62,398 nt of DNA, taken from NCBI RefSeq assembly GCF_016803135.1, contig NZ_JAEVFE010000012.1, positions 1 to 62,398 of the forward strand. Reading direction: 5' to 3'. Positions 4,325-49,570 of this stretch are shown here, piece by piece (the stretch's first letter is position 1; every line of letters begins with the position of its first letter). The stretch comes from Altererythrobacter sp. C41. Its GTDB lineage: Bacteria; Pseudomonadota; Alphaproteobacteria; Sphingomonadales; Sphingomonadaceae. The notes under the pieces were generated by a model. That model had not been told where the DNA came from. It saw nothing but the letters and a program-made list of their open reading frames with translations, and did not search any database. The position numbers and the translations under genes were made by a program.

Positions 4325-5497
4325 TCAGTAGGAGCGGGGCAATCCGAGGACGTGTTCCGAGAGATAGGCCAGTATCATGTTGGTCGAGATCGGCGCGACG
4401 CGATACAGCCGGGTCTCACGGAACTTGCGTTCCACATCGTATTCCTCGGCGAAGCCGAAACCGCCGAACGTCTGCACGCACATGTCCGCGGCCGCCCATG
4501 ATGCATCCGCAGCGAGCATCTTCGCCATGTTCGCCTCGGCACCGATGTTCGCCCCGGTTTCGTACCGCGCAGCGGCATGATAGACCATGAGTTCGGCCGC
4601 GCGCATGTCCGCGTAGGCTTTCGCGATCGGAAACTGAACGCCCTGGTTGGCGCCGATCGGCCTTGCAAAGAGCTTCCGTTCCTTCGCGTAGGCGGAGGCT
4701 TTCTCGATAAACCATTTGGCATCACCGATGCACTCGGCGCCGATAAGGATCCGCTCCGCATTCATGCCCGAGAGGATGTAACGAAACCCCTTCCCTTCCT
4801 CGCCGATCAGGCTCGAGGCAGGCACGCGCACGTTGTCGAAGAACACCTCGGTCGTGCTGTGGTTCATGATCGTTCGAATGGGCTTGATGGTCATGCCAGC
4901 ATCGCGCGCGGCACGCATGTCGACCAGGAAGATCGACAGGCCGTCGACCTTCTTCTCCACCTGGTCGCGAGGTGTCGTGCGAGCCAGCAGAAGCATGAGG
5001 TCGCTGTGCTCGGCACGGGACGTCCAGATCTTCTGCCCGCTCACGATATAATCGTCGCCGTCGCGCACCGCGGTGGTGCGTAGCGCAAGGGTGTCGGTGC
5101 CCGAGGTCGGTTCGGTCACGCCGAACGCCTGGAGGCGCAGCGCGCCGGACGCGATCTGCGGCAGGTAGTGCTGCTTCTGCTCCTCGCTGCCGTGGCGCAG
5201 CACCGTGTTCATGATGTACATTTGCGCATGGCAGGCCGATCCGTTGCAGCCGTTCGCCTGGATCTCCTCCATGATGACCGCCGCTGCGGTGAGATTCAGG
5301 CCCGAGCCGCCATACGCCTCGGGAATGAGCGCGGCGAGGAACCCTGCTTCCGTCAGGCTCTTGACGAACGCCGTCGGATATTCGGCCCTGCGGTCGAGAT
5401 CGCGCCAGTACTCGCCGGGAAAATCGGCGCAGAGGGCGCGAACGGCGCGCCGGATTTCCGCGAGTTCGTCGCTCTCGTGATCGGCAAGAGACTGCAC
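4325..5497 (-). CDS. Acyl-CoA dehydrogenase (last gene of the 12-gene operon)
   Basis: A 390-aa FAD flavoprotein with standard acyl-CoA dehydrogenase motifs: FGVTEPTSGTDTLALRT in the middle beta-domain, GQKIWTSRAEHSD, and the C-terminal helix CVQTFGGFGFAEEYDVER. It should introduce an alpha,beta-double bond into a CoA thioester and pass electrons to ETF. A GTG start at 5497 was chosen: it follows the stop of the upstream gene by 4 bp and has GGGAGGG within that gene's last codons. An ATG at 5572 would overlap the upstream gene by about 70 bp. Substrate chain type cannot be told from sequence. Confidence 0.9.
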   Translation of the reverse strand: MQSLADHESDELAEIRRAVRALCADFPGEYWRDLDRRAEYPTAFVKSLTEAGFLAALIPEAYGGSGLNLTAAAVIMEEIQANGCNGSACHAQMYIMNTVLRHGSEEQKQHYLPQIASGALRLQAFGVTEPTSGTDTLALRTTAVRDGDDYIVSGQKIWTSRAEHSDLMLLLARTTPRDQVEKKVDGLSIFLVDMRAARDAGMTIKPIRTIMNHSTTEVFFDNVRVPASSLIGEEGKGFRYILSGMNAERILIGAECIGDAKWFIEKASAYAKERKLFARPIGANQGVQFPIAKAYADMRAAELMVYHAAARYETGANIGAEANMAKMLAADASWAAADMCVQTFGGFGFAEEYDVERKFRETRLYRVAPISTNMILAYLSEHVLGLPRSY

Positions 5498-5501
5498 CGC
5501 G

Positions 5502-6407
5502 TCAGCCCTCCCATCCGTCGAAGATATCGCCGGCTTCGCGCTGGACCATCGTCGCGGCCTCCATCTGGCCATAGACGAGAGCGTTACCGATGACGTCGAG
5601 CGTATCCGACTTGCTCACGCCCCACGCCTTGCACAGCAGCACGTTCTCGCGAATGCCCTCGGCCGTGCGCGACATGACGTGATAGTACAGCAGCGCGGTC
5701 GGCCAGACCTGCTTGGGCAGGACGTAGAGCATGTTTTCGATCCGCGCCCGGTGCGTCTTGAGCAGACGCGGGCGATGTTCCGCCATGAAGCGGACGTAGG
5801 GCGGGATCTCCCCGATCGTGCGCAGATACCAATCGTAGAGCTTCGCCTTCTCGTCCGCACCAAAGTCGACCGTAGAAAAGTCGAGGCCCGATCTGAACGC
5901 GTCGATGTCCGGGGCCCAACCTTCGGGAAACTTCGCAGGCACTTCAGGCTCTTCGGGAAATTCCAGGCCCTCCATCGCCTCCGCGATGGTTTGCATGCCG
6001 CGCGGGCCTGCGTGAACGAACGCGATCGCGATCATCTCGTTCGCCTGCGCCCTGCTCAGCCCATCGTTGAGAAAGGAGTGCATGACGTAGCGCGCGCCGG
6101 TCACGTAGCCCATGAGCATGTAGAAGGCGAGCGTTCCGCCCCCCATCACCGCGGGTTCGACGCGCAGGGTCAGGCTGCAGTATAGCCGGTAGCGCTTGAG
6201 CACTTCCGGATTCTGGTCGAGCCACCAGTCGAGCCCGTCGAGAGGAAGGCCGAACTGCGTTGCGTAGTGCCCCCGGAAGCCATCGATCTCCTCCCGCGTG
6301 ATCTCGGTCGGCTTGGACAGGTCAAGGCCGCGATGCACCCAGTTGCCCCGATCGGGGTTGAAACCGCCGCTGACTTTCCTGAGTTCGGGCACGGTGAGAG
6401 AGGCCAT
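5502..6407 (-). CDS. Conserved protein, possible double carboxymuconolactone-decarboxylase-like fold (copy A)
   Basis: I do not recognise this 301-aa protein by name. It is soluble, with no signal or membrane segment. Two halves carry a similar helical pattern: YVTGARYVMHSF..GLS..Q..EM.AIAF.HAG (about residues 100-140) and LLYYHVMSR...ENVLLCKAWGVSKSD..DVIGNAL (about 240-285). Each is reminiscent of AhpD/CMD domains, but the CxxH redox pair is absent; the Cys is followed by KAW. A same-length paralogue lies at 18301-19206 and aligns without gaps. AAGGAG precedes ATG 6407. It sits in the operon between PhyH and acyl-CoA dehydrogenase, so a role in that pathway is likely. The fold assignment is inference. 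Confidence 0.6.
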   Translation of the reverse strand: MASLTVPELRKVSGGFNPDRGNWVHRGLDLSKPTEITREEIDGFRGHYATQFGLPLDGLDWWLDQNPEVLKRYRLYCSLTLRVEPAVMGGGTLAFYMLMGYVTGARYVMHSFLNDGLSRAQANEMIAIAFVHAGPRGMQTIAEAMEGLEFPEEPEVPAKFPEGWAPDIDAFRSGLDFSTVDFGADEKAKLYDWYLRTIGEIPPYVRFMAEHRPRLLKTHRARIENMLYVLPKQVWPTALLYYHVMSRTAEGIRENVLLCKAWGVSKSDTLDVIGNALVYGQMEAATMVQREAGDIFDGWEG

Positions 6408-6460: not shown

Positions 6461-7426
6461 TCAGCGCGGCGGCCGCAGTGAAATCGCGTGGCCGTCACTG
6501 GCGGATGCAAGTACTCGGTCGCCCACCTTCAACAGCTCCTGGAGCTCGTTGATCGAAAGGCGCTTGCCGGCCGTCCAGCGGCAGTAGGTATTCTCGTCGA
6601 TCGCGAGCGTGACGGTTTCCCCGGAGGGAAGGGCGATATCGATGGCATCGTCGGCGAAACGGCGGATCTCGCCGATTATCGGCAAATCGCCCGTCATCGG
6701 CGCGACCCGTACGTCCATGGACATGCGGAAACGGTCCGACGTGTTTGGCAGACCGCTATGCGGCGTCATCTTGTGGAACATCACCATGTCGCCGGGCCGG
6801 TAAAGGCTTCTATGCCACTTATCCGCGGGCAGAGCCCCGGGCGGAATGCGATACTGGGGCGGGTCGTCCCGATCGTGGAAGAAGTCGCCCTTGTGCAGCC
6901 CGGGGATGACTGCGAGGCCGCCGATGCGCTCGTCGATCTCCATCAACGGGATCCAGCAGGTGAAACACTCCATGCCCATGTTGTAGAAGGCATCCTGGTG
7001 CCGCCCAAAAAACGGATCCTCCGGCAAGGTCGCACCGGGAGGCGTGATGCGATACTCGGTAATCTCCAGCCAGAAAGGCGGACTGCCCAGCAACTTCGTG
7101 AAGAACGCGTCGACCGCCGGGTCGGAGACGAACTCCTCCCAAATCCGCGCCTCGTGCAGCGGCTCTATCTTGACCGGAAAGCTGCTGAGATCCGCGCCGT
7201 TCCAGACCGGCTCGCTCGCGCCGGCATCGACGACGCCCCAGTCGACCAGGACGTCCATATACCGCTGCCTGAGCCGGCCGACCGCGCCCTGATCGAGCAC
7301 GTCGCGAAAGTAGACGTAACCGTCCTCCTCCATCATCGCCAGCGTCTCGGCAGGTGTGCCGACCGTGTGATTGGCGACCCGCAGGGGCTTCATGTTTCGC
7401 AGGTCTTCGGTGGTAACAGTCGCCAT
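6461..7426 (-). CDS. Phytanoyl-CoA dioxygenase (PhyH) family oxygenase
   Basis: A 321-aa Fe(II)/2-oxoglutarate oxygenase of the PhyH family. The iron site is seen as the HxD of GRHQDAFYNMG and a distal His in KMTPHSGLPNTSDRFR, whose Arg would bind 2-oxoglutarate. The segment CFTCWIPLMEIDERIGGLAVIPG is the usual PhyH core (quoted in part). PhyH enzymes hydroxylate alpha to a CoA thioester or act on small molecules. GAGGACGCC precedes ATG 7426. A C-terminal extension of about 60 residues (LASASDGHAISLRPPR at the end) may form a small beta domain. It is the second 2-oxoglutarate oxygenase in the left end of the window. Confidence 0.85.
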   Translation of the reverse strand: MATVTTEDLRNMKPLRVANHTVGTPAETLAMMEEDGYVYFRDVLDQGAVGRLRQRYMDVLVDWGVVDAGASEPVWNGADLSSFPVKIEPLHEARIWEEFVSDPAVDAFFTKLLGSPPFWLEITEYRITPPGATLPEDPFFGRHQDAFYNMGMECFTCWIPLMEIDERIGGLAVIPGLHKGDFFHDRDDPPQYRIPPGALPADKWHRSLYRPGDMVMFHKMTPHSGLPNTSDRFRMSMDVRVAPMTGDLPIIGEIRRFADDAIDIALPSGETVTLAIDENTYCRWTAGKRLSINELQELLKVGDRVLASASDGHAISLRPPR

Positions 7427-7485: not shown

Positions 7486-8313
7486 CTAGACGGCGCGTGA
7501 AACTATGCCCCGCGCCCAGCGCAAAATCGCTATGTCGATCATTTTGCCGTCGATCGCGCTCGCTCCTCCGTCAGACAGTTGCAGCACCCTGGTCGCTCGT
7601 TCGATCTCTTCGGCACTTGGGGAGAAGCCGTCGTTGATTAGGGGAACCTGCTTGGGGTGAATGGCGGCCTTGGCGTGAAAGCCGAGACCGGTGGCCGCCG
7701 CGCAGGACTGAGCCAGCGCCGCCGCGTCGTCGATCGAGAAGAATGGCGAATCGATCGCAACCAGCCCCTCCATCGCGGCAGCGTTGGCAATGGCCGCGCG
7801 TGCGTATCCCGCATCGAGCACCTCGGGCGACTGGCCGAGATCGGCGGAATAGTCTGCCGCACCGAACATCAGCCCCGAAAGTCTCTCGCAGGCGCCCGCG
7901 ATACTGCCCACGTGATGAAGCCCGCGCGCGCTTTCGATCAGCGCAACGAGCCTTGCCCCCAGCCCGGCTTCGCTGGCCAGCCTGTCGATCAGGCAGAGTG
8001 AAGCGGAACCCTCGACTTTGGCAGCTACGATCGCATCGAGCGCGAGGCCGGGCCGCAGAAGGGCGCGCAGATCCTCCAGTCCAGCGAGCGTCTCGACCGG
8101 GTTGATGCGCACTGCGACTACCGCCTCGTCGCATGTCCCGTTGGCCAGGAAATCCCCGACGCTGATACGCGCTTCAGCTTTGCGGTCGGAAGGCACCGCG
8201 TCCTCGAGGTCCAGGATCACCGCGTCAGCCGTTGCCGCCGCCTTGGCGAAGCGATCCGGCCTGTCGCCGGGCACGAATAGCCACGATCGGGCCGAGGCAA
8301 TCGAGCGGCTCAT
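7486..8313 (-). CDS. HpcH/HpaI/CitE-family CoA-ester lyase
   Basis: A 275-aa TIM-barrel protein of the citrate-lyase beta / malyl-CoA lyase family. The motifs SWLFVPGDRPDRFAKA, VILDLEDAVPSDRKAEAR (metal-site Glu/Asp), ALIESARGL, and FHAKAAIHPKQV are clear. Family members cleave or form C-C bonds in beta-hydroxyacyl-CoA or malyl-CoA-like compounds. ATG 8313 overlaps the upstream hydratase stop as ATGA, which implies translational coupling; an ATG two codons earlier (8319) is also possible. The reading frame stays open much further upstream, but that part lacks homology and overlaps the hydratase gene. Confidence 0.88.
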   Translation of the reverse strand: MSRSIASARSWLFVPGDRPDRFAKAAATADAVILDLEDAVPSDRKAEARISVGDFLANGTCDEAVVAVRINPVETLAGLEDLRALLRPGLALDAIVAAKVEGSASLCLIDRLASEAGLGARLVALIESARGLHHVGSIAGACERLSGLMFGAADYSADLGQSPEVLDAGYARAAIANAAAMEGLVAIDSPFFSIDDAAALAQSCAAATGLGFHAKAAIHPKQVPLINDGFSPSAEEIERATRVLQLSDGGASAIDGKMIDIAILRWARGIVSRAV

Positions 8314-9155
8314 CGGCATTCCGCCGATGCGGTCATCGCACGGATGCCGCGCTGACTCGTCCAGAGATCCAGCCGCCCTTCGCTGTTCTCCGCATGGAGC
8401 AGGAGCGAGTGGCCCGCGACCGCTGGCGCCATGCCGCGGAAGCGGAAGGTCGCCAGCGGCCGGTCGAGCCGGCTGGCGGCCAGGTCTGCGAGGAGCGTGG
8501 CCTGTAGAGGGCCCTGTACGACAAGGTCCTCGTACCCCTCCTCCTCCACCGAGTAGGGACGGTCGTAATGGATGCGATGGCTGTTCAGCGTCAGTGCGGA
8601 ATAGCGAAAGAGGAGGATCGGGTCGGCCTGCACCTGGGCCGCGATCGATCTTTGCGCCTCGTCGTCGGGTCCTGCCGCGTGATCCGGCGACGGAACGGAT
8701 ACCGATCGAGCTGCAGCGGGCTCGCGGTAGACGAGATCCTGCTCTTCCTCGATCGCCAACCCCGCCTCGTCGAAGATTTCGTGCCGCACCGTCACGAATA
8801 CCAGATGCCCGCTCCGCCCCCGCTTTTCGGTGATCGCGTCGATCGTCGACACGCGCCGAATGTCCGCACCGAGCACCAGTGGCCGCCGAAAGATGAGGTG
8901 ACCGCCCGCCCACATGCGCCGGGGCAAGGCGATCGGCGGGAGAAACCCGCCTCGTTTCGGATGCCCGTCCGCACCGGTCTGTGCGGGGGTTCTAACGTCC
9001 CAGAAATGCAGCCAGTGATGCAGCGGCGGCAACGGATCGCCATCACCCAGCTCGACTTGTCGTCCCATGGCCGCGAACAGCGCCATGCTGCGCGATGCGT
9101 CGAGCCGATCCCGCCGCTCTTCTTGGCGACCGAGCCACGCGGAGAACTCCATCAT
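8310..9155 (-). CDS. FAS1-type MaoC-like acyl-CoA hydratase (HTD2 / mesaconyl-C4-CoA hydratase type)
   Basis: A 281-aa protein with two hotdog halves. The first half has LPPLHHWLHFWDV and the FLPPIALPRRMWAGGHLIF stretch typical of HTD2/3-methylfumaryl-CoA hydratase proteins. The second carries FRYSALTLNSHRIHYDRPY, the MaoC hydratase motif with its catalytic Asn/His context, then GYEDLVVQGPLQA. It probably hydrates an enoyl-CoA made by the operon's acyl-CoA dehydrogenase. Its stop overlaps the CitE start, and it begins 7 bp after the DUF35 stop. Next to a DUF35 protein and a Cys-less thiolase, it recalls the hydratase-aldolase unit of steroid side-chain breakdown. Confidence 0.85.
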   Translation of the reverse strand: MMEFSAWLGRQEERRDRLDASRSMALFAAMGRQVELGDGDPLPPLHHWLHFWDVRTPAQTGADGHPKRGGFLPPIALPRRMWAGGHLIFRRPLVLGADIRRVSTIDAITEKRGRSGHLVFVTVRHEIFDEAGLAIEEEQDLVYREPAAARSVSVPSPDHAAGPDDEAQRSIAAQVQADPILLFRYSALTLNSHRIHYDRPYSVEEEGYEDLVVQGPLQATLLADLAASRLDRPLATFRFRGMAPAVAGHSLLLHAENSEGRLDLWTSQRGIRAMTASAECR

Positions 9156-9162
9156 CGACCCG

Positions 9163-9567
9163 TTACTCCTGCGGTGCGATCGCCAGAACGGGTGTTTCCG
9201 ACCACGCCAGCCGCCTGAAGCACAGGTTCACGCGGGTTCCCGGCTTTGGAGCAGCCTCGGGATCCTCCAGGTGCGCGAGCAATCGGACGCCTCGCGCAAC
9301 TTGGACCAGTGCGATGCCGTACGGCAGGTGCTCTGCAAGGGCAGACTGGAACGCTCGGCGATAGACGACGATGCTCGACACTATGCCCACCGCTTCAGCG
9401 TCGCGCCACTCGACCGCCCCGGCGGTGCGGAAAGGGCTCGTCGGAGCCGGTGGCCAGAAGGGGCATCCCGTGGCGACGCAGTAGGGTAACGCGAGCCGTC
9501 CTTCCGCTGCCGCATTCCAGAACGGCCGCGACAGATCGTTGACGGCGGGTGCCAAGCTTTCGCTCAT
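9163..9567 (-). CDS. DUF35 OB-fold / zinc-ribbon-like protein, partner of the thiolase-like protein
   Basis: A 134-aa protein with the two-part DUF35 layout: an N-terminal rubredoxin-like finger (about residues 17-50, LALPYCVATGCPFWPP) and an OB-fold (VGIVSSIVVYRRAF to CFRRLAWSETP). The finger keeps only one Cys pair (C-x4-C); the second pair is missing, where TSPFRTAG stands, so zinc binding may be lost. Known DUF35 proteins bind thiolase-superfamily enzymes, as in ChsH2-Ltp2. The start ATG 9567 shares bases with the stop of the upstream thiolase-like gene (TGATG), a strong sign of a 1:1 complex. No catalytic role is expected of its own. Confidence 0.85.
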   Translation of the reverse strand: MSESLAPAVNDLSRPFWNAAAEGRLALPYCVATGCPFWPPAPTSPFRTAGAVEWRDAEAVGIVSSIVVYRRAFQSALAEHLPYGIALVQVARGVRLLAHLEDPEAAPKPGTRVNLCFRRLAWSETPVLAIAPQE

Positions 9568-10742
9568 CACGCGCTCCGCTCGAGAATCAAGGCATCGCCC
9601 CCGACCGAGGCCCACATCGCCCGAGCGGCATCGGGGACTTGACGCTGCTCTGCTTCGCCTCGCAACTGCGTAACCAGTTCTCGAATCTGGCCCCAGCCGT
9701 TGAGCTGGGCCTGCGACAATTGGCCGCCCGCCGTATTGGTCGGAAGGTCTCCGCCGAGCCCGATCCGGCCGCCTTGTATCCAGTGGAGCGCCTCCCCCGC
9801 GCGGCAAAACCCGAAATCCTCCAGGGCGTAGAGCGGCAGGGGCGAGAAGGAATCGTACAGACCCAGCACGTCGATGTCGTCGGGACGGGCGGCGGCCATC
9901 TCGTAAACCCGCTGCCGGCAGGCATCTTCGCGCGTGAGCCGCTTGTGGGACTGCTGCGCCATTCCGAGGCCGCTCGGTGCAAAGATGAACTCGTTGCGCC
10001 CCGCCCGCATCCCTTGCGCACCGGTTATGCGGACTTCGCGCGCATCGGCGCCGGCTGCCGCGACGATTACGCACACGGCGCCATCGCCAACCGGCGAGCA
10101 GTCGAACAGTCGCAGCGGGTCGACGATCGGGCGCGACGATCGATAGTCTTCCGCCGTCATCGGCGTGCGCATGATCGCGTCGTCGGTGAGGAGCGCGTGG
10201 CGCCGGAACGTCAGCGGAATCTCCGCCAGAAGCTCGCGATCGACGCCGTAGCGACGGCAATAGAGGTCGAACCCCATTGCGGCCCCGGCAATGGGTGAGG
10301 ACATGCCGATATGGCCTTCCTCGCCATGCGGTCCGCCGTTCTCACGGAACTGCTCGTGATAGAAAGGATTGTCGGCCTCTCCCATGCGGCCGATGTCCGA
10401 GTTCTTCATGGCCATCAGACACGCGACCCGGGTAGCCAGACCGGCGGATACGGCCATTGCCGCTTGAATGATCACGCTCGCGGCAAACCGACCGTGGGCC
10501 CATGTCTGTCCGCAATAGGAAGGCGACAGGCCGAAGGTCAGCGCGATGGTGTCGTAGTCAGCGCCTCGCGGCGATCCGACCTGCACGATCAGACCATCGA
10601 TCTGCTCCTTGTCCAGCCCAGCATCGGCGAGCGCCGCGTTAAGCGCGTCTCCGGCGAACTCGAGCACCGACGCCTCGGGCCTGCGTTCGAAGCGGCTGGC
10701 ACCCACGCCGGCGATCGCGGTCATTCCATCGAGAAAAGCCAT
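9567..10742 (-). CDS. Thiolase-like (SCP2/Ltp2-type) protein lacking the catalytic Cys; putative retro-aldolase
   Basis: A 391-aa thiolase-superfamily protein similar to SCP-x/Ltp proteins (IAGVGASRFERRPEASV at the start, FDCSPVGDGAVCVIV, DLPTNTAGGQLSQAQLNGWG). Where active thiolases have a nucleophilic Cys in an A-C-A-S context, this one reads GRFAASV (about residue 87, Ala). The usual HDCF motif reads YDSFSP and the usual GHP loop reads QLN. It therefore should not do Claisen chemistry; by analogy with Ltp2 it may catalyse retro-aldol cleavage of a beta-hydroxyacyl-CoA. Its stop overlaps the DUF35 start and its start overlaps the CoA-ligase stop. Confidence 0.87.
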   Translation of the reverse strand: MAFLDGMTAIAGVGASRFERRPEASVLEFAGDALNAALADAGLDKEQIDGLIVQVGSPRGADYDTIALTFGLSPSYCGQTWAHGRFAASVIIQAAMAVSAGLATRVACLMAMKNSDIGRMGEADNPFYHEQFRENGGPHGEEGHIGMSSPIAGAAMGFDLYCRRYGVDRELLAEIPLTFRRHALLTDDAIMRTPMTAEDYRSSRPIVDPLRLFDCSPVGDGAVCVIVAAAGADAREVRITGAQGMRAGRNEFIFAPSGLGMAQQSHKRLTREDACRQRVYEMAAARPDDIDVLGLYDSFSPLPLYALEDFGFCRAGEALHWIQGGRIGLGGDLPTNTAGGQLSQAQLNGWGQIRELVTQLRGEAEQRQVPDAARAMWASVGGDALILERSA

Positions 10743-12364
10743 CAGCCGTTACAGCCGAGCTCGCGCGAAGCTTCTTCCCGCAGCCGATGTTTGGCAACCT
10801 TGCCGCTGGCGAGGCGCGGCAACTGATCTTCGGTCCGGAAGAGCACGTGATGCGGCACCTTGAACGAGGCTGCCCGTTCCTTGACGTAACCGCGGACGTC
10901 GTCTTCCGCAAGGCGCGCGGCCGCATCCACGAAGGCGACGATCAGTTCGCCCCGGACGGCATCGGCGACGCCCACCACGTAAGCATCGCGGACGTCCGGA
11001 TGACCGGCGATCAGTTGCTCGACCTCGACCGGCGACACGTTGATGCCGCCGCTCTTGATGATTTCTTTCAAACGCGAATGGAAGATGAAGTGCCCATCCG
11101 CATCGAAGTGCCCCAGATCCCCGGTATCGAAGAAGCCGTCGGATCGCAGGGCCCTGGCCGTTTCCTCCTGGTTGTGCAGGTAGCCGGTGGTGGTGTGGCC
11201 GCGGATCAGGACGAGACCCACCTCTCCCCGCTGCAGATCACGGCCGGTCGCGGGGTCGACGATCCGCATCTCCATGCCGGGCAGCGGCTTTCCGCTGGTC
11301 GCGAGCTTGACCTCGAGCGGATCGTCCGGACTGCCGACGGTGGCATTGCCGTAAGTCTCGGTCAGACCATAGGCCGGCACGGCGCCAGCGACACCCATCT
11401 CCACCAGCGTCAGCCGCTTGTACTCCGCGACCGTGCCGGCATTGCCCTTCTGCAGCGATCCGATCCGGGCCTGCCGGTATTCCGGATGATCCAGTATAGC
11501 GCGCGTCATGTTGCCGGTTCCGTAATATACGGTAGCACCGGTGTGCTCGATCACGTCGATCGCCCGGCCGGCATCGAAATAGTCCTGCAGTACGATGGTC
11601 GCCCCAAGCGTGAGCGTCGCCGGTAGCGCGTTGGTCGCGCCCAGGCCGTAGAACAGCGGCGTTCCGAACCAGACCCGGTCGTCCGCCACGATGCCGCGCC
11701 TGCGCCCCAACTCGATCCCGTTCTCGACCACGCCGCGTCCGTTGAGCATGACGCCCTTGGGTTCCGCGGTGCTGCCCGAAGTGTAGAGGATGAACGCGGT
11801 ATCGGCACCGCTGGCGCGAGCGATGGCAGCGGCGAGATCGTCCGCGGCGACCCCGCGGCCGCAGGCGAGAAAGTCCGCCCAGGATGAAACGCCCGACGGC
11901 GCATCTCCAACGAAGAACAGACCCGCCAGCTCCGGAAAGCCTGGCGCCTCGATGCGGCCCGGTGCCGCGCCCCGTGCCTCCGGCACGATCTTGTGAAGGA
12001 GTGCGAGATAGTCCGCCTTCAGGAAGCGGGTGGCGCTGACCAGCAGCTTGAGACCGCAATGTCGCAGGGTCCAGGCAAGCTCGGTTTCCTTGTACCAGGT
12101 ATTGAGCGGGACGAGCGTTGCGCCGAGATACGAGGTGGCGAGTGCCATCACCACCCACTCGGGCTGGTTGCCCAGGAGGACGCCGACGCGGTCCCCTCGC
12201 CGCACGCCCAGAGCGAGAAGGCTGCGCGTCGCAGCCAGGCTCTGATCGCGAAGCTCCGCATAGGAAATGGCGCGATCATGGTAGAGAATTGCCGGATGGT
12301 TCGGAGCCGCGGCGCATTTCTCGTCGAGCACCGCCGCCAGGCGGTTGCTTTCAGGCGCGACCAT
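10742..12364 (-). CDS. AMP-dependent acyl-CoA synthetase/ligase
   Basis: A 540-aa ANL-superfamily ligase. Visible motifs are the phosphate loop FILYTSGSTAEPKGVM, the adenine motif YGLTETYGN, the hinge-region DTGDLGHFDADG and GGINVSPVEVEQLI, and the C-terminal catalytic Lys in LPRLASGKVAKHRLRE. It should convert a carboxylic acid to its CoA thioester with ATP. ATG 12364 was preferred because GGAGA lies upstream and residues from there match the family; it overlaps the upstream gene by 14 bp. It likely feeds the dehydrogenase-hydratase-aldolase steps of the same operon. Acid specificity is unknown. Confidence 0.92.
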   Translation of the reverse strand: MVAPESNRLAAVLDEKCAAAPNHPAILYHDRAISYAELRDQSLAATRSLLALGVRRGDRVGVLLGNQPEWVVMALATSYLGATLVPLNTWYKETELAWTLRHCGLKLLVSATRFLKADYLALLHKIVPEARGAAPGRIEAPGFPELAGLFFVGDAPSGVSSWADFLACGRGVAADDLAAAIARASGADTAFILYTSGSTAEPKGVMLNGRGVVENGIELGRRRGIVADDRVWFGTPLFYGLGATNALPATLTLGATIVLQDYFDAGRAIDVIEHTGATVYYGTGNMTRAILDHPEYRQARIGSLQKGNAGTVAEYKRLTLVEMGVAGAVPAYGLTETYGNATVGSPDDPLEVKLATSGKPLPGMEMRIVDPATGRDLQRGEVGLVLIRGHTTTGYLHNQEETARALRSDGFFDTGDLGHFDADGHFIFHSRLKEIIKSGGINVSPVEVEQLIAGHPDVRDAYVVGVADAVRGELIVAFVDAAARLAEDDVRGYVKERAASFKVPHHVLFRTEDQLPRLASGKVAKHRLREEASRELGCNG

Positions 12365-13208
12365 GGTTGTCTCCCTGACCGCTTTCGATGTCCCAGAAAC
12401 GCTGCATTTCGACGAGGTCGAGCGTTTCCTTCCGGGCGCGTGCGAGGCTTTCGTCGGGCTGGTCGATCGTGCCGCTCCGAGCCAGCCCCGCCCAGAGATC
12501 CGACAGGCCGGATGCAATAAGGGCCACCCCGTTGAAGGGATAGCACGCAAGCGCGAAGCCGGCCTGTTCCAAGGTGGCGAGTGAAGGGATCGGGGGCACG
12601 ACTCCGCCGATCCAGATCAGCGGCGTATCCGGAAAGGCTGCGCGAAACGGTTCGGTGGCGTCAGGACCGAGATCGAGCACCATCAGGGCGTCGGCACCGG
12701 CATCGACATAGGTCGCGCAGCGCGCGAGCGTCTCGTCGATCGACTTCGTAACGCGCAAGGCATCGGTTCGGGCGACGATGGCGAAAGCCGCGGTGCGCCG
12801 CGCTGAAACCACCGTGCGCAGGCGGCGCGCCATAGTCTCCGGCGACACGAGCGTACCCTGGCCCCGATGATAGGCGGCACGCTTGGGGTAAGGCTGGTCG
12901 TCGATATGCAGGCCGGTCGCGCCCGCCGCCTCGATCTCGCGGACCGCAAGATGCAGGTGGGCCGGCTCGCCGAAACCCGCACCCGCGTCCACCAGGACCG
13001 GTAGGTCGGTCGTGGCTGTGACACGCGCCGTGATCGCCGCGGTTTCGGACAAGGTGATGAAAGGCTGCCCCTTGCCGAGCCCCAGAGCCATCGCATTGCC
13101 GCCCAGATAGAGCGCGCTGTGCCCGGCTTGCTCCGCAATGCGCGCGGTAAGGGGATCATGAATACCGGGAGCAGCCGTGATCGCTCCGGTTTGCCACAGC
13201 GCGCTCAT
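12351..13208 (-). CDS. Isocitrate lyase/PEP mutase superfamily C-C or C-P lyase-like enzyme
   Basis: A 285-aa alpha/beta-barrel protein of the ICL/PEPM superfamily. It has the N-terminal ALYLGGNAMALGLG, PVLVDAGAGFG metal-binding Asp region and IEAAGATGLHIDDQ. The loop where isocitrate lyases carry KKCGH reads PKRAAYH, so the catalytic Cys is absent. That argues against isocitrate or methylisocitrate lyase and for an oxaloacetate-decarboxylase, carboxyphosphonate-mutase or 2,3-dimethylmalate-lyase-like role. Its start overlaps the intradiol dioxygenase stop by 4 bp (ATGA). With CitE it gives the operon two candidate C-C lyases. Confidence 0.85.
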   Translation of the reverse strand: MSALWQTGAITAAPGIHDPLTARIAEQAGHSALYLGGNAMALGLGKGQPFITLSETAAITARVTATTDLPVLVDAGAGFGEPAHLHLAVREIEAAGATGLHIDDQPYPKRAAYHRGQGTLVSPETMARRLRTVVSARRTAAFAIVARTDALRVTKSIDETLARCATYVDAGADALMVLDLGPDATEPFRAAFPDTPLIWIGGVVPPIPSLATLEQAGFALACYPFNGVALIASGLSDLWAGLARSGTIDQPDESLARARKETLDLVEMQRFWDIESGQGDNHGRA

Positions 13209-13996
13209 CGCGAGGTCCGCGAAACGGCGAAATCGAAGACCGCTTCATATTCGTCGGCGACGCCGCTGTCGGCGGGCTTCATGCCGATCAGGAGATCATC
13301 GCTCACCGCCCCTTCCACATAGTCGCTGTCGAGATAGGGATTGCCGGGAACGAACAACTGCGTCGTCAGGAGGCAGTGTTCGCCTTCCCATATCTTGACG
13401 TGGATATGCGCAGCGCGGCGATTGTGGCGCCCCATAGCCCGGAACAGCTCGCCGATCGGATCGTGATCATGGTCCGAGTAGTCCTTCGGAACGGCCGTTC
13501 GCGCGCGATAGCGGCCCTCTTCGTCAGCGCGCACCCGGCCGAACAACTGGAGATCGTCAAGATCGTAGTGCCCGTCGTGATCCGCCTGCCACAGGTCGAC
13601 GATCGCGCCGGGGATCGGCGCGCCGGTCGCCGCGTCGGTAACGCGCCCCGACAGATGGAGCACTGGCGTGCCCGGCGGCGGATCGCCGGCGAACAGATCG
13701 CCGTCCTCCCGCAGCGGCGCGGCTCGATAGAAAGGACCTTCCAGATTCGGCCGCGTGCCGCCTGGCACGCGTGCCGTCACATCCACGCTGGTCATCGCCA
13801 GCGCGACATCGATCAGGCTTCGGCAGAAGCCGGACTGACCCAGCCTGTTGAAATAGTCGCCGGCGACGTGAAGTTCGTCCTGGGTGATTTCGAATTCCCG
13901 AACGACCTCCTTCATCTTCTCGACCGTGCGGGCGAAGATCGCCTTCAGCCTCTCGTCGGGTTCGGCATCGGGCAGTTCGGCTGGCATCTGGTTCAT
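13205..13996 (-). CDS. Intradiol ring-cleavage dioxygenase (catechol/hydroxyquinol 1,2-dioxygenase type)
   Basis: A 263-aa non-heme Fe(III) dioxygenase with the N-terminal helical dimerisation domain of catechol-type enzymes (residues 1-75), then the beta-sandwich. The four ligands are visible: Y144 (DGHYDL), Y173 (PKDYSD), H197 and H199 (RRAAHIHV), with the Arg at about 193-194 in the expected place. It should open a catechol, hydroxyquinol or substituted analogue between the two hydroxyls. Start and stop overlap neighbours by 4 bp each. That it is embedded with a CoA ligase and lyases suggests the ring-cleavage acid is activated to CoA, but this order is inferred. Confidence 0.9.
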   Translation of the reverse strand: MNQMPAELPDAEPDERLKAIFARTVEKMKEVVREFEITQDELHVAGDYFNRLGQSGFCRSLIDVALAMTSVDVTARVPGGTRPNLEGPFYRAAPLREDGDLFAGDPPPGTPVLHLSGRVTDAATGAPIPGAIVDLWQADHDGHYDLDDLQLFGRVRADEEGRYRARTAVPKDYSDHDHDPIGELFRAMGRHNRRAAHIHVKIWEGEHCLLTTQLFVPGNPYLDSDYVEGAVSDDLLIGMKPADSGVADEYEAVFDFAVSRTSR

Positions 13997-15024
13997 GGTT
14001 TCAGCACAACGCGGCCCGAAGCCGCGCCTCCTTCGACGATTTCATGGGCCTGCGCGACTTCGGAAAGAGGCAGAACCCGGCTGACCTGCGGAGTCACGAT
14101 CCCCCGTGCCGCCAGCGCGATCGCGTCCGCCAGCTGGGCTCGGCTGACGCTGCCCACACCGAGAATCTGCGCACGCTTGAAGAAGATGCGCGCCGGGTTG
14201 ATCGAGATGTCCTCTCCGAACAATTGCCCGACCATTGCATAGCGGCCGTGGACGGCGAGGCTGTCGAAACACGCGTCGAACACGCGGCTGCCGACATTGT
14301 CGACGACGATGTCCACGCCTTCACCATCCGTCAGATCGCGCACTTCTCCGGCGAAGTTCTCGCCGTCACCCGCGATGACCACCTCGTCCGCGCCAATGCC
14401 GACGAGGAACTCGCGCTTTGCGGCGCTTCGCGTGACGGCAATCACGCGCGCACCGCATGCCTTTGCGATCTGGACGCTGGGAACACCGACACCGCCAGTC
14501 GCGCCGGTCACCAAGACCGTCTCGCCGATCTGCACCCGGGCCGTGTCGCGCAACGCGTTGAGTGCCACGCCGGCGCCGGGCCCCAGCGAGCAGCTCACTT
14601 CGAACGGAATGGCCGCCGGCACTTTGGCGAAAGCGTCCTGAGGCAGCGCAACGTATTCGGCGTAGCCGCCTTTGACCGGCCGGCGGCGCCGGCAAGTCGT
14701 CTCGCGCCCGCTCCGGCAAAACCTGCAGGCCCCACAACTGATAAACGCCTTGCTGCAGACATGATCGCCTACGGCGAGATCCAGCACGGCCTCGCCATGG
14801 GCGGCCACGGTGCCGCTGATCTCGAGCCCGAGAACCGCCGGCCAGACCACGTCGCGGCGATAGGTACCGTTTCGTTCGACCACGTCGCGGTAGGAGACGC
14901 CGCAAGCCTCGACCTTGACGAGCACCTCTTCCGGTCCGATCGTGGGCACCGGGACGTCTTCCAGGACGAAGGCGTCCGGCGATCCCGCCCCGTGCAGGAC
15001 GGCAGCTTTCATGGTTCGCGTCAT
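13993..15024 (-). CDS. Zinc-type (MDR) alcohol dehydrogenase
   Basis: A 343-aa medium-chain dehydrogenase. The structural zinc site is intact as C-x2-C-x2-C-x7-C (CGACRFCRSGRETTC), and the Rossmann motif is TGATGGVGVPSVQIAKA. The catalytic-zinc signature is altered: the usual GHE reads GLE (VLGLEISG), so the zinc His is missing although the Cys in EACGVSYRD remains. It may be a zinc-independent reductase or a modified dehydrogenase. ATG 15024 follows the FMN-monooxygenase stop directly (TAGATG); MKAAVLHG five codons in is an alternative start. It probably oxidises an alcohol intermediate or reduces an enoyl compound. Confidence 0.85.
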   Translation of the reverse strand: MTRTMKAAVLHGAGSPDAFVLEDVPVPTIGPEEVLVKVEACGVSYRDVVERNGTYRRDVVWPAVLGLEISGTVAAHGEAVLDLAVGDHVCSKAFISCGACRFCRSGRETTCRRRRPVKGGYAEYVALPQDAFAKVPAAIPFEVSCSLGPGAGVALNALRDTARVQIGETVLVTGATGGVGVPSVQIAKACGARVIAVTRSAAKREFLVGIGADEVVIAGDGENFAGEVRDLTDGEGVDIVVDNVGSRVFDACFDSLAVHGRYAMVGQLFGEDISINPARIFFKRAQILGVGSVSRAQLADAIALAARGIVTPQVSRVLPLSEVAQAHEIVEGGAASGRVVLKP

Positions 15025-16359
15025 CTACTCGGCAGCCGCGGCAAAGAACCGATTGTCCGGTCGCGACAGGCCGAGGCTGTCACGGAGCGTCGTTCCTTCG
15101 TACTCCGTGCGGAAGAGGCCGCGACGCTGGAGTTCCGGCACCAGGATGTCGATTACGCCTTCGAGCCCGCCGGGCAGATAAGGCGCCACGATATTGAAAC
15201 CGTCGCACGCCTTGTCCCGGTACCACTCCTCCATGACGTCCGCGACCTGCGCCGCATCGCCCTTGATGAGTACATGGCCCCGGGCGGGCAGCACATGCTG
15301 ATACAACTGGCGGATCGAGAGGCCGTCGCGCTGCGCCATCTCCTGAAGCATGTTGCGGAAGCTCCGAATACCCAAGGTTTCGGGTAGTTCCGGCAGCGGA
15401 TCTTCCGGAGAGTATTGCGAAAGATCCACGCCGACCATCTTGGAAAGAACCTGGATTCCGACTTCCTCCGGGATCAGATCCTGCAACCGGCGGTAATCGC
15501 GTTCGGCGTCGTCGGCCGTATGACCGACGAAGATGGCAGTGCCGGGAAGCACCTTCAGATCGTCCGGCTTGCGCCCGTACTTCGCCAGGCGGCCTTTCAC
15601 GTCGGCGTAGAATTTCTGCGCCGCTTCCTTGGTTTCGGTCACAGTGAAGATAACGTCGGCGGTGCGCGCCGCGAGCTCCATCGCGGAGTCCGACGCGCCC
15701 GCGACGATGACGACCGGGTGTCCTTGCGGCGGGCGCGCCGAGTTCAAGGGGCCGCGGACGGAGAAGTTCTTGCCCTTGTGCTCCAGCAGACGGACCTTCT
15801 CGCCGTCGAGAAAGACCCCGCTTTCCTTGTCGAGCACGAAAGCGTCATCCGCCCAGCTATCCCACAGGTCCTTCACGACATCGACGAATTCGCCGGCCCG
15901 TTCGTAGCGGTCGTTGTGCTCTACATGTTCGTCGCGGCTGAAGTTTTTGGCGTCCTCAGCGTTGGACGAGGTCACCACGTTCCAGCCCGCGCGGCCCTTG
16001 CTCAGCCAGTCGAGCGCCGCGTAGCGACGAGCGATGCTGAAGGGCTGATCGTAGGTGGTGGTGGCAGTCGCCACGAGACCCACACGCGAGGTGACCGGAG
16101 CAAGCGCCGACAGAAGGCTGACCGGTTCGATCACTACGGGTCTCGTGATCGGGTTGCGGCTGAGAAGAGCGGGGTTCTCGATGCCGTTCACACCGTTCCC
16201 GTCCGCAAGGAACATCATATCCAGCTTTCCGCGTTCGATCAGCTTGGCGAATTCGATCCACCGATCGAAGTTGAAGCCGGCGTCGATCACGGCGTCCGGA
16301 TGCCGCCAGCCCCCGGCGTGCCCACCGGTCGGCGACATGAATACGGACAGTTTCAACAT
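15025..16359 (-). CDS. FMN-dependent monooxygenase, NtaA/SnaA/DszA family (LLM class)
   Basis: A 444-aa flavin-dependent TIM-barrel oxygenase of the nitrilotriacetate monooxygenase/DszA group. Typical stretches are GGWRHPDA, LDMMFLADGNGV, ALDWLSKGRAGWNVVTSS, DRYERAGEFVDVVKDLWDSW and ARPPQGHPVVIVAGASDS. Such enzymes need FMNH2 from a separate reductase and cleave C-N, C-S or C-C bonds or hydroxylate. GAGG lies 7 bp before ATG 16359. It is the first gene of the 12-gene operon, so probably the first step. No dedicated flavin reductase is visible nearby. The flavin-precursor gene ribB at 24980 may be relevant. Confidence 0.92.
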   Translation of the reverse strand: MLKLSVFMSPTGGHAGGWRHPDAVIDAGFNFDRWIEFAKLIERGKLDMMFLADGNGVNGIENPALLSRNPITRPVVIEPVSLLSALAPVTSRVGLVATATTTYDQPFSIARRYAALDWLSKGRAGWNVVTSSNAEDAKNFSRDEHVEHNDRYERAGEFVDVVKDLWDSWADDAFVLDKESGVFLDGEKVRLLEHKGKNFSVRGPLNSARPPQGHPVVIVAGASDSAMELAARTADVIFTVTETKEAAQKFYADVKGRLAKYGRKPDDLKVLPGTAIFVGHTADDAERDYRRLQDLIPEEVGIQVLSKMVGVDLSQYSPEDPLPELPETLGIRSFRNMLQEMAQRDGLSIRQLYQHVLPARGHVLIKGDAAQVADVMEEWYRDKACDGFNIVAPYLPGGLEGVIDILVPELQRRGLFRTEYEGTTLRDSLGLSRPDNRFFAAAAE

Positions 16360-18300: not shown

Positions 18301-19206
18301 ATGATGGCCGAACCCATCGAACAGCTACGCGCCATCAATCATGGCTTCGACCCGGATAACGGGAGCTGGGTGCACCGCGGGCTCGACCTGTCGAAGCCGA
18401 CCGAGCTTGCCCCGGGCGAGGCGGATGCGTTTCGGCAGCACTACGCGACGCAATTCGGCCATTCGCTGGATGGCCTCGACTGGTGGCTCGATCAGAATCC
18501 CGAGGTGCTCAAGCGCTACCGCCTCTATTGCAGCCTGACATTGCGGGTGAAGCCGGCGATCACCGGTAACGGCACCCTCGCCTTCTATGCGCTTCAGGGC
18601 TACGTCACCGGCGTCCGCTACGTTCTGCATAGCTGGAGGGCGCGGGGCGTGGGCAAAGCCGAGGCGCTGGAAATGCTCGCGATGTCCTTCATCCATGCCG
18701 GCCCGCGCGGCATGCAGGCGATCGCTGAAGCCGCCAAGGACATCGAGTTCGAGGACAAGCCCGCCAATCCAGCGAATTATCCGGAAGGCTGGGCTGCCGA
18801 CATCGACGCCTTCCGATCGGGCATCGATTATTCGACGGTCAATCTCACGGCCGACGAGAAAGCCAAGATCTACGACTGGTATCTGCGCACTATCGGCGAG
18901 ATTCCGCCTTACGTTCGCTTCATGGCCGAGCATCGCCCGCGGCTGCTCAAGTCGCATCGCGCGCGGATAGAGAACATGCTTTACGTCCTGCCCAAACAGA
19001 TGTGGCCGACGCACATGCTCTACTACCATGTGATGTCCCGGCTCGCCGAAGGCATTCGGGAAAGCGTGCTGCTGTGCAAGGCGTGGGGGGTCACCAAGTC
19101 CGACACTCTCGATGTGATCGGCAATGCCCTCGTCTACGGCCAGATGGAGGCTGCAACGATGATCCAGAACGAGGCGGGAGACGTCTTCGACGGCTGGCAG
19201 GAGTGA
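18301..19206 (+). CDS. Conserved protein, possible double carboxymuconolactone-decarboxylase-like fold (copy B)
   Basis: A 301-aa paralogue of the protein at 5502-6407; the two align end to end without gaps and share most residues, including WVHRGLDLSKPTE, DWWLDQNPEVLKRYRLYCS, YDWYLRTIGEIPPYVRFMA and SDTLDVIGNALVYGQMEAA. I do not recognise a named family. The repeated helical pattern with HAGPRGMQAIAEA suggests a duplicated AhpD/CMD-like fold without the CxxH motif. AGGAG lies just upstream; ATG 18301 or ATG 18304 may be used, and the gapless alignment favours 18301. It is coupled to the SDR at 19203. Confidence 0.6.
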   Translation: MMAEPIEQLRAINHGFDPDNGSWVHRGLDLSKPTELAPGEADAFRQHYATQFGHSLDGLDWWLDQNPEVLKRYRLYCSLTLRVKPAITGNGTLAFYALQGYVTGVRYVLHSWRARGVGKAEALEMLAMSFIHAGPRGMQAIAEAAKDIEFEDKPANPANYPEGWAADIDAFRSGIDYSTVNLTADEKAKIYDWYLRTIGEIPPYVRFMAEHRPRLLKSHRARIENMLYVLPKQMWPTHMLYYHVMSRLAEGIRESVLLCKAWGVTKSDTLDVIGNALVYGQMEAATMIQNEAGDVFDGWQE

Positions 19207-22760: not shown

Positions 22761-24014
22761 CTAGAGACCCATCTCTCGGCGGTAGAAGTCGTAGAAGGCG
22801 CGGATCAGCGTCTCGGTCATCATCGTGGACTGGGCTTCTGTGCCGTGCCCGCCCATTTCCAGAACCTGGACCGAGTCCGGGCAGCTCTCCACGACCGGCT
22901 GCATGAGCGAGAGCACTTCGCTGTCCTCGAGGCTGACGAATCCCGCCGGGCCGACCAGATTGCTCTGCTTGAGCCGCAGGCGGTTGATCGTCTCGTCGTC
23001 GTCGGCATAGCCGAAGTAGGTCCACGACAGCTCGTGCGCCCCCACTCCCTTGGGGATGACATGGCGCACGACGAGGCAGTTGAAATACTGCTGGACGAGA
23101 ATCGTCGGGAACACCTGGAAGGCGCCCATCATCCCGTCCTTGAACTCGTCGACGACGGAGGACACGACCTCCTTGTCCTTCACTTCCAGATCAGAGTGGA
23201 TGCTCTTGATCTGCTTGGAGGCCTCGCTGGTCTTGTTCTTCAGCTCGGGATCGTATTGCGAATAGGTATATTCGTGCCGCCCTTCCTGCAGCGGAACGCT
23301 GTGATAGTCCCCATCCGTGCGAAGGATGCCGAACGTGGACAGGAACGGGTGCATCAGCGTCGCGTGGTAGGGATCGCGGCTGTTTTCCCAGTAGAGCTTC
23401 CAGTTACTCTCGACGATCTGGCGGCTGTATCCGAGCAGCCGCAGCGGGCGCCGCGACACGAGCCGGTCCAGCCGCATGAGGATCTCGGGGCCGAGATATT
23501 CCTCGAGCGGCGCCACCTCGTCGCTGTAGGTCGCCCAGATCGAACCACCCCGGACGGCCACGCGAAGCTTGGTAAGGCCGTTCTTGGACTTGTCGAAATC
23601 GCGGGGCATCCCGCCCTTGCCCTGGACCCCGCGCAGGAAAGGCAGCCCCATGAGATCGCCGGACAGGTTGTATGTCCAGTGATGATAGGGGCAGGTGATG
23701 TCCTTGGCCTGGCCACGGTTCTTCCAGCAGAGCAGCGAACCGCGATGGGCGCAGCGATTCTCGACGACGTGGATTTCGCCCTCGGCGTCCCTGGTGATGA
23801 TGACCGGGCGCTCGCCGACCCAGGATCGCTTGAAGCTGTTCGGCTCCGGAACCTCGCAATCGAGACCCACGAAGTTCCACGTCTTCCCGTAATGGAAGAC
23901 CTTCAGTTCCTTGGCGTAGATCTCGGGGTCGGAATAGATCCACGCGGGCACGCGCGTCACACCGTCCTCCGGCCAGACCCGATCGGTCGCGTTGCGCAGC
24001 GTTGTGTCGCTCAT
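22761..24014 (-). CDS. Rieske non-heme iron oxygenase, large (alpha) subunit
   Basis: A 417-aa ring-hydroxylating oxygenase alpha subunit. The Rieske cluster ligands are C88-x-H90 (ENRCAHRG) and C108-x2-H111 (TCPYHHWTY); the mononuclear iron His pair is H217 and H222 (DPYHATLMH), preceded by the conserved NWKLYWENSRD. It forms the catalytic subunit with the beta subunit encoded immediately upstream. Such enzymes dihydroxylate, demethylate or monohydroxylate aromatic or alicyclic substrates. The gene order beta then alpha is reversed relative to most classical systems. Substrate unknown. Confidence 0.93.
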   Translation of the reverse strand: MSDTTLRNATDRVWPEDGVTRVPAWIYSDPEIYAKELKVFHYGKTWNFVGLDCEVPEPNSFKRSWVGERPVIITRDAEGEIHVVENRCAHRGSLLCWKNRGQAKDITCPYHHWTYNLSGDLMGLPFLRGVQGKGGMPRDFDKSKNGLTKLRVAVRGGSIWATYSDEVAPLEEYLGPEILMRLDRLVSRRPLRLLGYSRQIVESNWKLYWENSRDPYHATLMHPFLSTFGILRTDGDYHSVPLQEGRHEYTYSQYDPELKNKTSEASKQIKSIHSDLEVKDKEVVSSVVDEFKDGMMGAFQVFPTILVQQYFNCLVVRHVIPKGVGAHELSWTYFGYADDDETINRLRLKQSNLVGPAGFVSLEDSEVLSLMQPVVESCPDSVQVLEMGGHGTEAQSTMMTETLIRAFYDFYRREMGL

Positions 24015-24028
24015 GACGGCTTCCTTGC

Positions 24029-24523
24029 TCAGACGGGGATCACGAGAGTGGTGCGGATCCGGTAGTTGTCGAAGACACAGGTGCGCTCGCGGAACTTGAG
24101 CGAACCATCCTCGCGCACCACGCGGTCCAGATAGCGGCCGACCATCAGGATCCGGGGTTCGCGCTCGACAAGCGATTCGATGATGAGGAAGTTGGCTTCG
24201 GCCCGGACCTCGCCGTTCTCCTCGCCGGTAATCCGCACGCCACTGACGAAGTGCCGCAGCGAACGCGGCTGATAGAGCGCGGCTTCGACGGTGGCCGTCA
24301 CCCGATCCTCGATCATCGCCCGGCCGAGACAGAAGATCGAGGCATGCTCGAGACCGTCATCGTGATTCTCGCGCGAGATCACCTGGTATTTGGCGTCTTC
24401 GGTGAAGAAAGCAGGAAACTCGCGAAGCGCTTCCGCGTCGAGACAGGCGGCATAATCGTCGAACAGGTCGCGCAATTCGCCGCGGGTGATCCGCCCGACC
24501 TCATCTCGCACCGGCGCCGTCAT
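24029..24523 (-). CDS. Ring-hydroxylating oxygenase small (beta) subunit
   Basis: A 164-aa NTF2-like protein matching dioxygenase beta subunits: LRDLFDDYAACLDAEALREF, DAKYQVISREN, RSLRHFVSGVRI and a terminal FDNYRIRTTLVIPV. Beta subunits stabilise the alpha3beta3 hexamer and have no metal. GAGGTAG/GGA lies upstream of ATG 24523. It is the first gene of the oxygenase-ferredoxin-thiolase-dehydrogenase operon, and a TGTCGACA palindrome sits about 25 bp upstream of its start. Confidence 0.9.
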   Translation of the reverse strand: MTAPVRDEVGRITRGELRDLFDDYAACLDAEALREFPAFFTEDAKYQVISRENHDDGLEHASIFCLGRAMIEDRVTATVEAALYQPRSLRHFVSGVRITGEENGEVRAEANFLIIESLVEREPRILMVGRYLDRVVREDGSLKFRERTCVFDNYRIRTTLVIPV

Positions 24524-49566: not shown

Positions 49567-49570
49567 GCCG

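Follow-up and report, generated by a model that had tools for sequence, protein, structure and literature searches.

The DNA stretch analysed here (the window, 62,398 bases) is one whole contig of Altererythrobacter sp. C41, whose genome comprises 3.2 Mb in 30 contigs. Twelve genes between 4325 and 16359 form one run on the minus strand, and two of them are the subject of this analysis: a gene for a thiolase-fold protein without the nucleophilic Cys, hereafter the thiolase-like protein, and a gene for a partner of the DUF35/ChsH2 type (Table 1). The gene coordinates given in an earlier note on this DNA are right, as the frames open at those positions, and the stop and start of the two genes are indeed shared (TGATG at 9569-9565, one base in common). 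The junction of the acyl-coenzyme A (CoA) ligase gene with the thiolase-like gene is likewise TGATG with one base in common, 7 bases separate the DUF35 gene from a hydratase gene, and the latter overlaps a CitE lyase gene by ATGA.

The place of the thiolase nucleophile is held by Gly84, within the motif W81-A82-H83-G84-R85. The loss of the Cys had already been noticed, but the Ala of GRFAASV that was put in its place reflects an error of register. The replacement of HDCF by YDSF was read properly (residues 296-299, with Tyr296 at the His of HD(A/C)F and Ser298 as the third residue), and the triplet aligned with GHP is not QLN but Ala345-Gln346-Leu347, in which Gln346 takes the place of the His. 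An active Cys at another position was looked for by alignment, and the seven Cys residues all fall outside the columns of the thiolase nucleophile and of the HDCF Cys. Membership of the thiolases or SCP2-type thiolases was rejected on the replacement of the nucleophilic Cys by Gly84. The C41 protein has its fold in common with the SCP2-type thiolase 6hsj and the archaeal thiolase 7yvy, but other residues stand in place of their Cys nucleophile, of the HD(C/A)F His and, within the subgroup of its closest relatives, of the GHP His.

The closest match of known structure is a side-chain aldolase. A phmmer search of the PDB with the thiolase-like protein returns Ltp2 first (6ok1, 1e-43), followed by 4u4e, 7yvy and Sal (9myr), and a 62-row profile matches Ltp2 at 5e-99, 4u4e at 2e-86 and Sal at 3e-65. 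The single-chain model predicted with AF2 (AlphaFold2) has a pLDDT (predicted local distance difference test) of 90.7 and a pTM (predicted template modelling score) of 0.92, and Foldseek with this model places 6ok1 best (E 5e-35, TM 0.84), 4u4e third and 9myr fourth. TcLtp2-ChsH2 (6ok1), the aldolase of the cholesterol C3 side chain, shares with the C41 pair the thiolase fold, the Gly at the Cys place, the base Tyr of YD.F and the DUF35 partner. It differs in that its Tyr344 corresponds to Gln346 and its YDHF to YDSF in the C41 protein, and in that the C41 DUF35 is without the four zinc Cys. CtSal-CtShy (9myr), the aldolase of the bile-acid C5 side chain, likewise has the base Tyr and a Gly instead of the nucleophilic Cys. 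Among the fold matches of the C41 partner its DUF35 ranks first, and Gln347 and Gln352 of Sal align with Gln341 and Gln346. Its catalytic Cys304 (YDCY), on the other hand, corresponds to Ser298, it has Gly and Ala where the C41 protein has His83 and Arg85, and it lies on a long branch outside the clade described below. The second-best sequence match, 4u4e (a 'thiolase' of Sphaerobacter thermophilus), is also Cys-less with YDSF, but carries GGS instead of HGR and lies outside the same clade.

The catalytic residues are Tyr294 and Tyr344 in TcLtp2 and Tyr302 and Cys304 in CtSal, where Gln352 stands at the place of the Ltp2 Tyr344 (accessible part of PMC12329534). Membership of Sal was rejected (Ser298 at the Cys304 place, DUF35 without the Cys3His1 finger, Sal itself outside the clade of the C41 protein in the tree), as was that of Ltp2 (Gln346 at the Tyr344 place with Tyr296 kept, separate clade, profile score under the cut-off). 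The profile in question is the NCBIfam lipid-transfer model PRK07855, which we take to stand for Ltp2; it is the best-scoring model with 218 bits, below its cut-off of 469. The earlier interpretation finds partial support: Ltp2-ChsH2 as best sequence and fold match, the two aldolase DUF35s as best matches of the partner, the retained base Tyr, the loss of the Cys and the coupled DUF35 speak for the aldolase branch rather than a thiolase, but an Ltp2-type mechanism is not supported, given the replaced Tyr344 and the separate clade.

The partner protein gives the same indication. Both Pfam domains of the C41 DUF35 score over their gathering cut-offs (PF01796 39.1 against 27.1, PF12172 25.4 against 23.2), and the single-chain model has a pLDDT of 92.1. 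Its first three fold matches are the DUF35 subunits of the Sal-Shy and Ltp2-ChsH2 complexes (E 2e-8 to 1e-7), whereas the DUF35s of thiolase and Friedel-Crafts acylase complexes match less well (9e-6 and weaker). Both proteins point to aldolase complexes, the DUF35 more clearly. The zinc site is altered, with C-x4-C at the first Cys pair and T-S-P-F in place of the second. The pattern C-x2-C...C-x2-C is found in 49 of the 69 DUF35 sequences that were read; the second pair is absent in all seven DUF35s of the C41 subgroup (C41, L025-L029 and L044), the first C-x2-C is also absent in all six that can be read there, and the remaining 13 exceptions are of an actinobacterial type without the fourth Cys. 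The DUF35 gene of L028 (11173-11567, Brevundimonas) is matched as two pieces that overlap and differ in frame, which would fit a frameshift or an error of assembly; because it is read only in part, it was counted for the missing second pair alone. In the partner of Sal, an altered Cys3His1 zinc finger reshapes the substrate cleft (accessible part of PMC12329534), and by analogy the loss of the zinc Cys in the subgroup may likewise reshape it.

Relatives were collected by scanning 84,980 species genomes with two patterns, one of which holds HGR, and the best 80 of 98 were kept, which amount to 79 loci. Three loci (L101, L102 and L103) were excluded from the clade counts because they are without HGR and fall outside the clade (all three in a 111-row tree, L101 and L103 in the tree built without the motif columns). 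The other 76, together with three plasmid loci (from Rhodococcus sp. DK180, R. koreensis and the haloarchaeon Natronosalvus halobius) and the C41 protein, make up 80 clade rows. Trp81, His83 and Arg85 are invariant in the 77 clade rows covering these places; Gly84 is found in 76 of the 77 and Tyr296 in 78 of 79. The HGR-holding pattern misses 48 clade rows, 47 of which have HGR all the same, and HGR occurs in none of 49 outside relatives. These comprise the best loci of their searches rather than every match, namely a second pair from the C41 genome itself (L002), 19 loci that were the best from other genomes in a search of 98 (L003-L021) and 29 of the best loci in a search of 398 (L105-L133). 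The second DUF35-thiolase pair of the genome lies on another contig (551528-552960) and is of the type with Cys and HDCF. Asp62, Asp64, Gln79 and Glu130 are likewise near-constant in the clade (76 or 77 of 77 rows each). The outside relatives mostly show a gap at place 62, three of the 49 have Asp at place 64, and neither Gln79 nor Glu130 is among the five commonest letters listed at its place.

A tree built without the motif columns separates 34 of the 80 clade rows, with a support of 100/99, from 28 other sequences that include Ltp2 and Sal. A phylogeny against Ltp2, as had been suggested, thus does not join the C41 protein to Ltp2, which groups elsewhere with L004, L005, L105, L107 and L108. 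A quick 111-row tree also recovers the clade (60 rows; Shimodaira-Hasegawa-like approximate likelihood ratio test, SH-aLRT, 99). The six closest relatives come from two Sphingomonadaceae, one member of the Erythrobacteraceae and metagenome-assembled genomes (MAGs) of Sphingomonas, Brevundimonas and Roseomonas. Place 298 is Ala in 63 of 79 clade rows, Ser in 9, Pro in 5 and Val and Gly in one each, with Cys in none; place 346 is His in 66 of 78, Gln in 9, Tyr in 2 and Met in one. Ser298 and Gln346 occur together only in the C41 protein, L025-L029 and L044, and Ala298 with Gln346 in L030 and L032. The last two loci, together with L078 and L085, belong to one betaproteobacterial MAG (CANJQI) that carries clade members on at least four contigs. 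The C41 protein belongs to a separate, apparently unstudied branch with an active-site pattern of its own, and it may cleave C-C bonds in an undescribed way. A thiolase-fold C-C lyase with a DUF35 partner is of an already known kind, and the new part lies in the clade, its signature and a DUF35 without zinc Cys pairs, of which we found no description among the matches listed from the open-licence literature.

The Cys loss and the YD motif were discarded as oddities in themselves, since 42 of the 49 non-clade relatives have Gly at the Cys place and 47 have Tyr for the HD(A/C)F His. We also considered that the protein might be a thiolase with a different nucleophile or a subunit without catalysis. 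The thiolase fold, the His of GHP kept at place 346 in most of the clade, and Cys224, present in 46 of the 78 clade rows but in none of the four reference proteins, would fit such a protein. However, the alignment has no Cys column at the thiolase nucleophile, the three places where Cys is most frequent in the clade (108, 215 and 313) also hold it in Ltp2, and Tyr296 and H-G-R show more conservation than an inactive subunit would be expected to keep. We regard both versions as very unlikely.

We propose instead, as an evenly balanced call, that the thiolase-like and DUF35 proteins form a putative two-protein retro-aldolase for a 3-hydroxyacyl-CoA, with another catalytic acid than its characterised relatives, in an operon for aromatic degradation. 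Tyr296 would be the base that takes the proton of the 3-hydroxyl group, and the amide of Gly84 would hold the hydroxyl oxygen, as the equivalent amide of Sal Gly89 is modelled on the substrate hydroxyl (accessible part of PMC12329534). The CoA enolate would be reprotonated by a residue other than the Ltp2 Tyr or the Sal Cys, for which His83 and Arg85, flanking Gly84, are the best candidates. The simplest scheme confined to near-invariant residues would pair Tyr296 as base with either His83 or Arg85 as the acid or oxyanion partner, and the predicted products are acetyl- or propionyl-CoA and a ketone or aldehyde. A wider version of this proposal is possible but somewhat doubtful: the clade would embody a third retro-aldol solution in the thiolase fold, in which the invariant His-Gly-Arg (with Asp62, Asp64, Gln79 and Glu130) stands in for both known acids, Tyr in Ltp2 and Cys in Sal, and which several bacterial phyla and a haloarchaeon would use on non-steroid CoA esters, with a zinc-free DUF35 in one subgroup.

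Several observations weigh against the retro-aldolase. By TM-score the archaeal acetoacetyl-CoA thiolase 6esq (0.82) is near Ltp2 (0.84) and above Sal (0.79). With Ser298 and Gln346, the C41 protein equals at two catalytic places the C304S variant of CtSal, for which, as for C304A and C304H, activity was not detectable according to the accessible part of PMC12329534. The lack of both proven acids (Cys or His at 298, Tyr at 346) is no mark of a special mechanism, because it is found in 76 of 78 clade rows but also in 25 of 49 outside rows. It cannot be taken for granted that all clade members catalyse one reaction, as place 346 is Gln in the C41 subgroup and His in most clade rows. No DUF35 was found near the thiolase-like gene in 9 of 83 loci (L032, L069, L070, L075, L079, L080, L081, L086 and L088; the stretches of L075 and L086 end at the thiolase), and just 26 of the 75 loci that could be located have a hydratase-like gene no farther than 8 kb away, so that hydration next door is not general. 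These 83 rows are the 80 clade rows and L101-L103. In favour of the proposed pair, 74 of them have a DUF35-like frame no more than 2.5 kb from the thiolase-like gene, and in 72 it is the next frame downstream on that strand. Like the one-base overlap, this position is an indirect sign of a complex, as is the correlation of 0.92 between the distances within the thiolase and DUF35 families over 64 pairs, a value that common descent alone could give. Since many outside relatives are also without the proven acids, the schemes of Ltp2 and Sal may cover a small part of the superfamily.

The operon itself bears on the substrate. The full order flavin mononucleotide (FMN) monooxygenase, alcohol dehydrogenase, intradiol dioxygenase, phosphoenolpyruvate (PEP) mutase type, ligase, thiolase-like protein and DUF35 is kept (by tblastn) in Novosphingobium lindaniclasticum (L025), Croceicoccus ponticola (L026), Sphingosinithalassobacter portus (L027) and the Brevundimonas MAG (L028). 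The Roseomonas MAG (L029) has the alcohol dehydrogenase, ligase, thiolase-like and DUF35 genes by the same method, and the stretch of the Sphingomonas MAG (L044) starts inside the thiolase gene. The ligase gene adjoins the thiolase-like gene in L025-L029, and the six close relatives have PhyH in four cases, an acyl-CoA dehydrogenase in five and an aldehyde dehydrogenase in four. This would be a conserved sphingomonad operon for an aromatic substrate, to judge from the monooxygenase, alcohol dehydrogenase, intradiol dioxygenase and CoA ligase; nothing on the operon or its substrate was found among the matches listed from the open-licence literature. The earlier view that the operon is not steroid-like is not contradicted, with three weak matches to HsaA, none over the cut-off, in a weak test that 0 of 14 control genomes passed.

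The intradiol dioxygenase gene, followed by the CoA ligase and thiolase-like genes, also suggests another reaction. The order intradiol dioxygenase, CoA ligase, thiolase recalls 3-oxoadipate routes, and the pair could make a Cys-free cut of a 3-oxoacyl-CoA, by hydrolytic retro-Claisen cleavage or decarboxylation of a 3-oxoadipyl-CoA-like substrate from intradiol ring cleavage, while the downstream hydratase and CitE would take itaconyl- or mesaconyl-CoA from methylsuccinyl-CoA. The accessible part of PMC12329534 offers a slow decarboxylation of malonyl-CoA by TbSLP as a parallel, but reports none by Sal. Moreover, the two Cys-less, Tyr-type, DUF35-bound relatives that are known to be characterised, Ltp2 and Sal, are retro-aldolases, and they lead the DUF35 fold search. 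We consider such a cut of a 3-oxoacyl-CoA unlikely.

Table 1. Genes of the minus-strand run in the window, in order of transcription
Gene product	Coordinates	Strand	Remarks
FMN monooxygenase, NtaA/DmoA family	15025..16359	-	first gene of the conserved order
Alcohol dehydrogenase, zinc-type	13993..15024	-	
Intradiol ring-cleavage dioxygenase (catechol/hydroxyquinol-type)	13205..13996	-	
PEP mutase/methylisocitrate lyase superfamily protein	12351..13208	-	
Acyl-CoA ligase (AMP-binding)	10742..12364	-	stop shares 1 base with the thiolase-like start
Thiolase-fold Cys-less protein, 391 amino acids (aa), probable C-C lyase subunit	9567..10742	-	W81-A-H83-G84-R85, Y296-D-S-F, Q346
DUF35/ChsH2-type OB-fold partner, 134 aa	9163..9567	-	start shares 1 base with the thiolase-like stop
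FAS1_DH-type hydratase	8310..9155	-	closest to itaconyl-CoA hydratase (8khg, 8huc)
CitE/HpcH lyase, RipC (citramalyl-CoA lyase)-like	7486..8313	-	ATGA overlap with the hydratase gene
PhyH-family dioxygenase	6461..7426	-	also downstream in L026, L027, L028 and L044
301-aa protein	5502..6407	-	no Pfam match
Acyl-CoA dehydrogenase	4325..5497	-	in 5/6 close relatives, 67-82% identical

The two genes directly downstream of the DUF35 gene look like an itaconyl-CoA hydratase/citramalyl-CoA lyase pair, a resemblance that the earlier note did not point out, any more than it did the W-x-H-G-R motif or the altered zinc site. The only PDB matches of the hydratase are the 275-aa chains 8huc (202 bits) and 8khg (201 bits), the latter named itaconyl-CoA hydratase, and the best match of the CitE protein is 3qll (212 bits); against the NCBIfam RipC equivalog it scores 273 bits, below the cut-off of 375. 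A known cluster combines an itaconyl-CoA hydratase and a citramalyl-CoA lyase with a dehydrogenase that turns methylsuccinyl-CoA into mesaconyl-C4-CoA (accessible part of PMC12290011). The C41 hydratase and CitE match parts of this itaconate/methylsuccinate degradation cluster, but the CitE protein stays under the RipC cut-off and the pair is embedded in an aromatic operon. Among the six close relatives the two genes directly follow DUF35 only in L028, as in C41; a different gene follows in L025, L026, L027 and L044, and the 1.4 kb covered after the DUF35 gene of L029 shows no hydratase.

The earlier note had the adjacent hydratase feed the aldolase, in a cycle in which ligase, acyl-CoA dehydrogenase, FAS1_DH hydratase and aldolase-DUF35 would act in succession on one side chain. 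All these genes do lie in one same-strand run, L067 and L068 have an acyl-CoA dehydrogenase gene and two MaoC genes near the thiolase-DUF35 pair, and in L027 and L044 a FAS1_DH gene, incomplete at the end of the stretch, follows the dehydrogenase gene. The itaconyl-CoA hydratase matches, the overlap with a RipC-like lyase gene, the position beside DUF35 in one of six relatives and the known association of dehydrogenase, hydratase and lyase (accessible part of PMC12290011) stand against this role, and we judge the cycle quite improbable. On the same grounds the hydratase and CitE, perhaps with the dehydrogenase, are provisionally assigned to an end module for branched C5 dicarboxylyl-CoA, which would be separate from the aldolase.

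Across the clade the neighbourhoods agree with a CoA-ester substrate. A ligase or a CaiB-type CoA transferase occurs somewhere in 64 of 83 loci and an aldehyde dehydrogenase in 21, so the CoA ester is well supported and an aldehyde product weakly. C41 was tallied with its whole 62 kb in the 83-row counts, neighbourhoods of 8 kb refer to the located loci, and all these counts are lower bounds because the gene caller missed genes, for example the FAS1_DH gene of L028, which was found by tblastn. Many gene pairs labelled 'thiolase family' and 'OB-fold' carry no assigned reaction, and for one clade of them a signature that can be tested (W-x-H-G-R combined with YD[A/S/P]F) is now available, along with conserved operons. 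Should the retro-aldol proposal prove right, thiolase-fold aldolases would reach beyond steroids, and their general acid would have been replaced more than once.

Other branches of the clade have other neighbours. The main actinobacterial branch (L022, L048, L051, L054, L057-L060, L062, L064-L066, L095 and L099) has an island, within 8 kb, with an FAD (flavin adenine dinucleotide)-linked oxidase in 14 of 14 loci, an indolepyruvate:ferredoxin oxidoreductase in 12, a cyclase-family protein in 12 and MmgE/PrpD in 7. The plasmid of Rhodococcus sp. DK180 (L022) carries a further thiolase-DUF35 pair and an aldehyde dehydrogenase gene. In another actinobacterial branch (L024, L094 and L096) the thiolase-DUF35 pair is accompanied by MaoC, CitE and hydantoinase-like genes. 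On the Natronosalvus halobius plasmid (L023), genes for a cyclase, a member of the carboxymuconolactone decarboxylase family and a ligase adjoin, and three thiolase-DUF35 pairs lie within 11 kb.

The 301-aa protein of the C41 run, which we presume to be AhpD/carboxymuconolactone-decarboxylase-like, has a second copy in the window (18301-19206, plus strand, 75% identical), and its homologues flank the operon on both sides in L025-L027. Elsewhere in the window, a riboflavin-pathway gene with DHBP synthase and GTP cyclohydrolase II domains (24980-26101, minus strand) lies beside ring-hydroxylating dioxygenase genes (22761-24523), and a P450 gene has a 2Fe-2S ferredoxin gene directly behind it (48358-49891, plus strand), followed by a gene for a TonB-dependent receptor.

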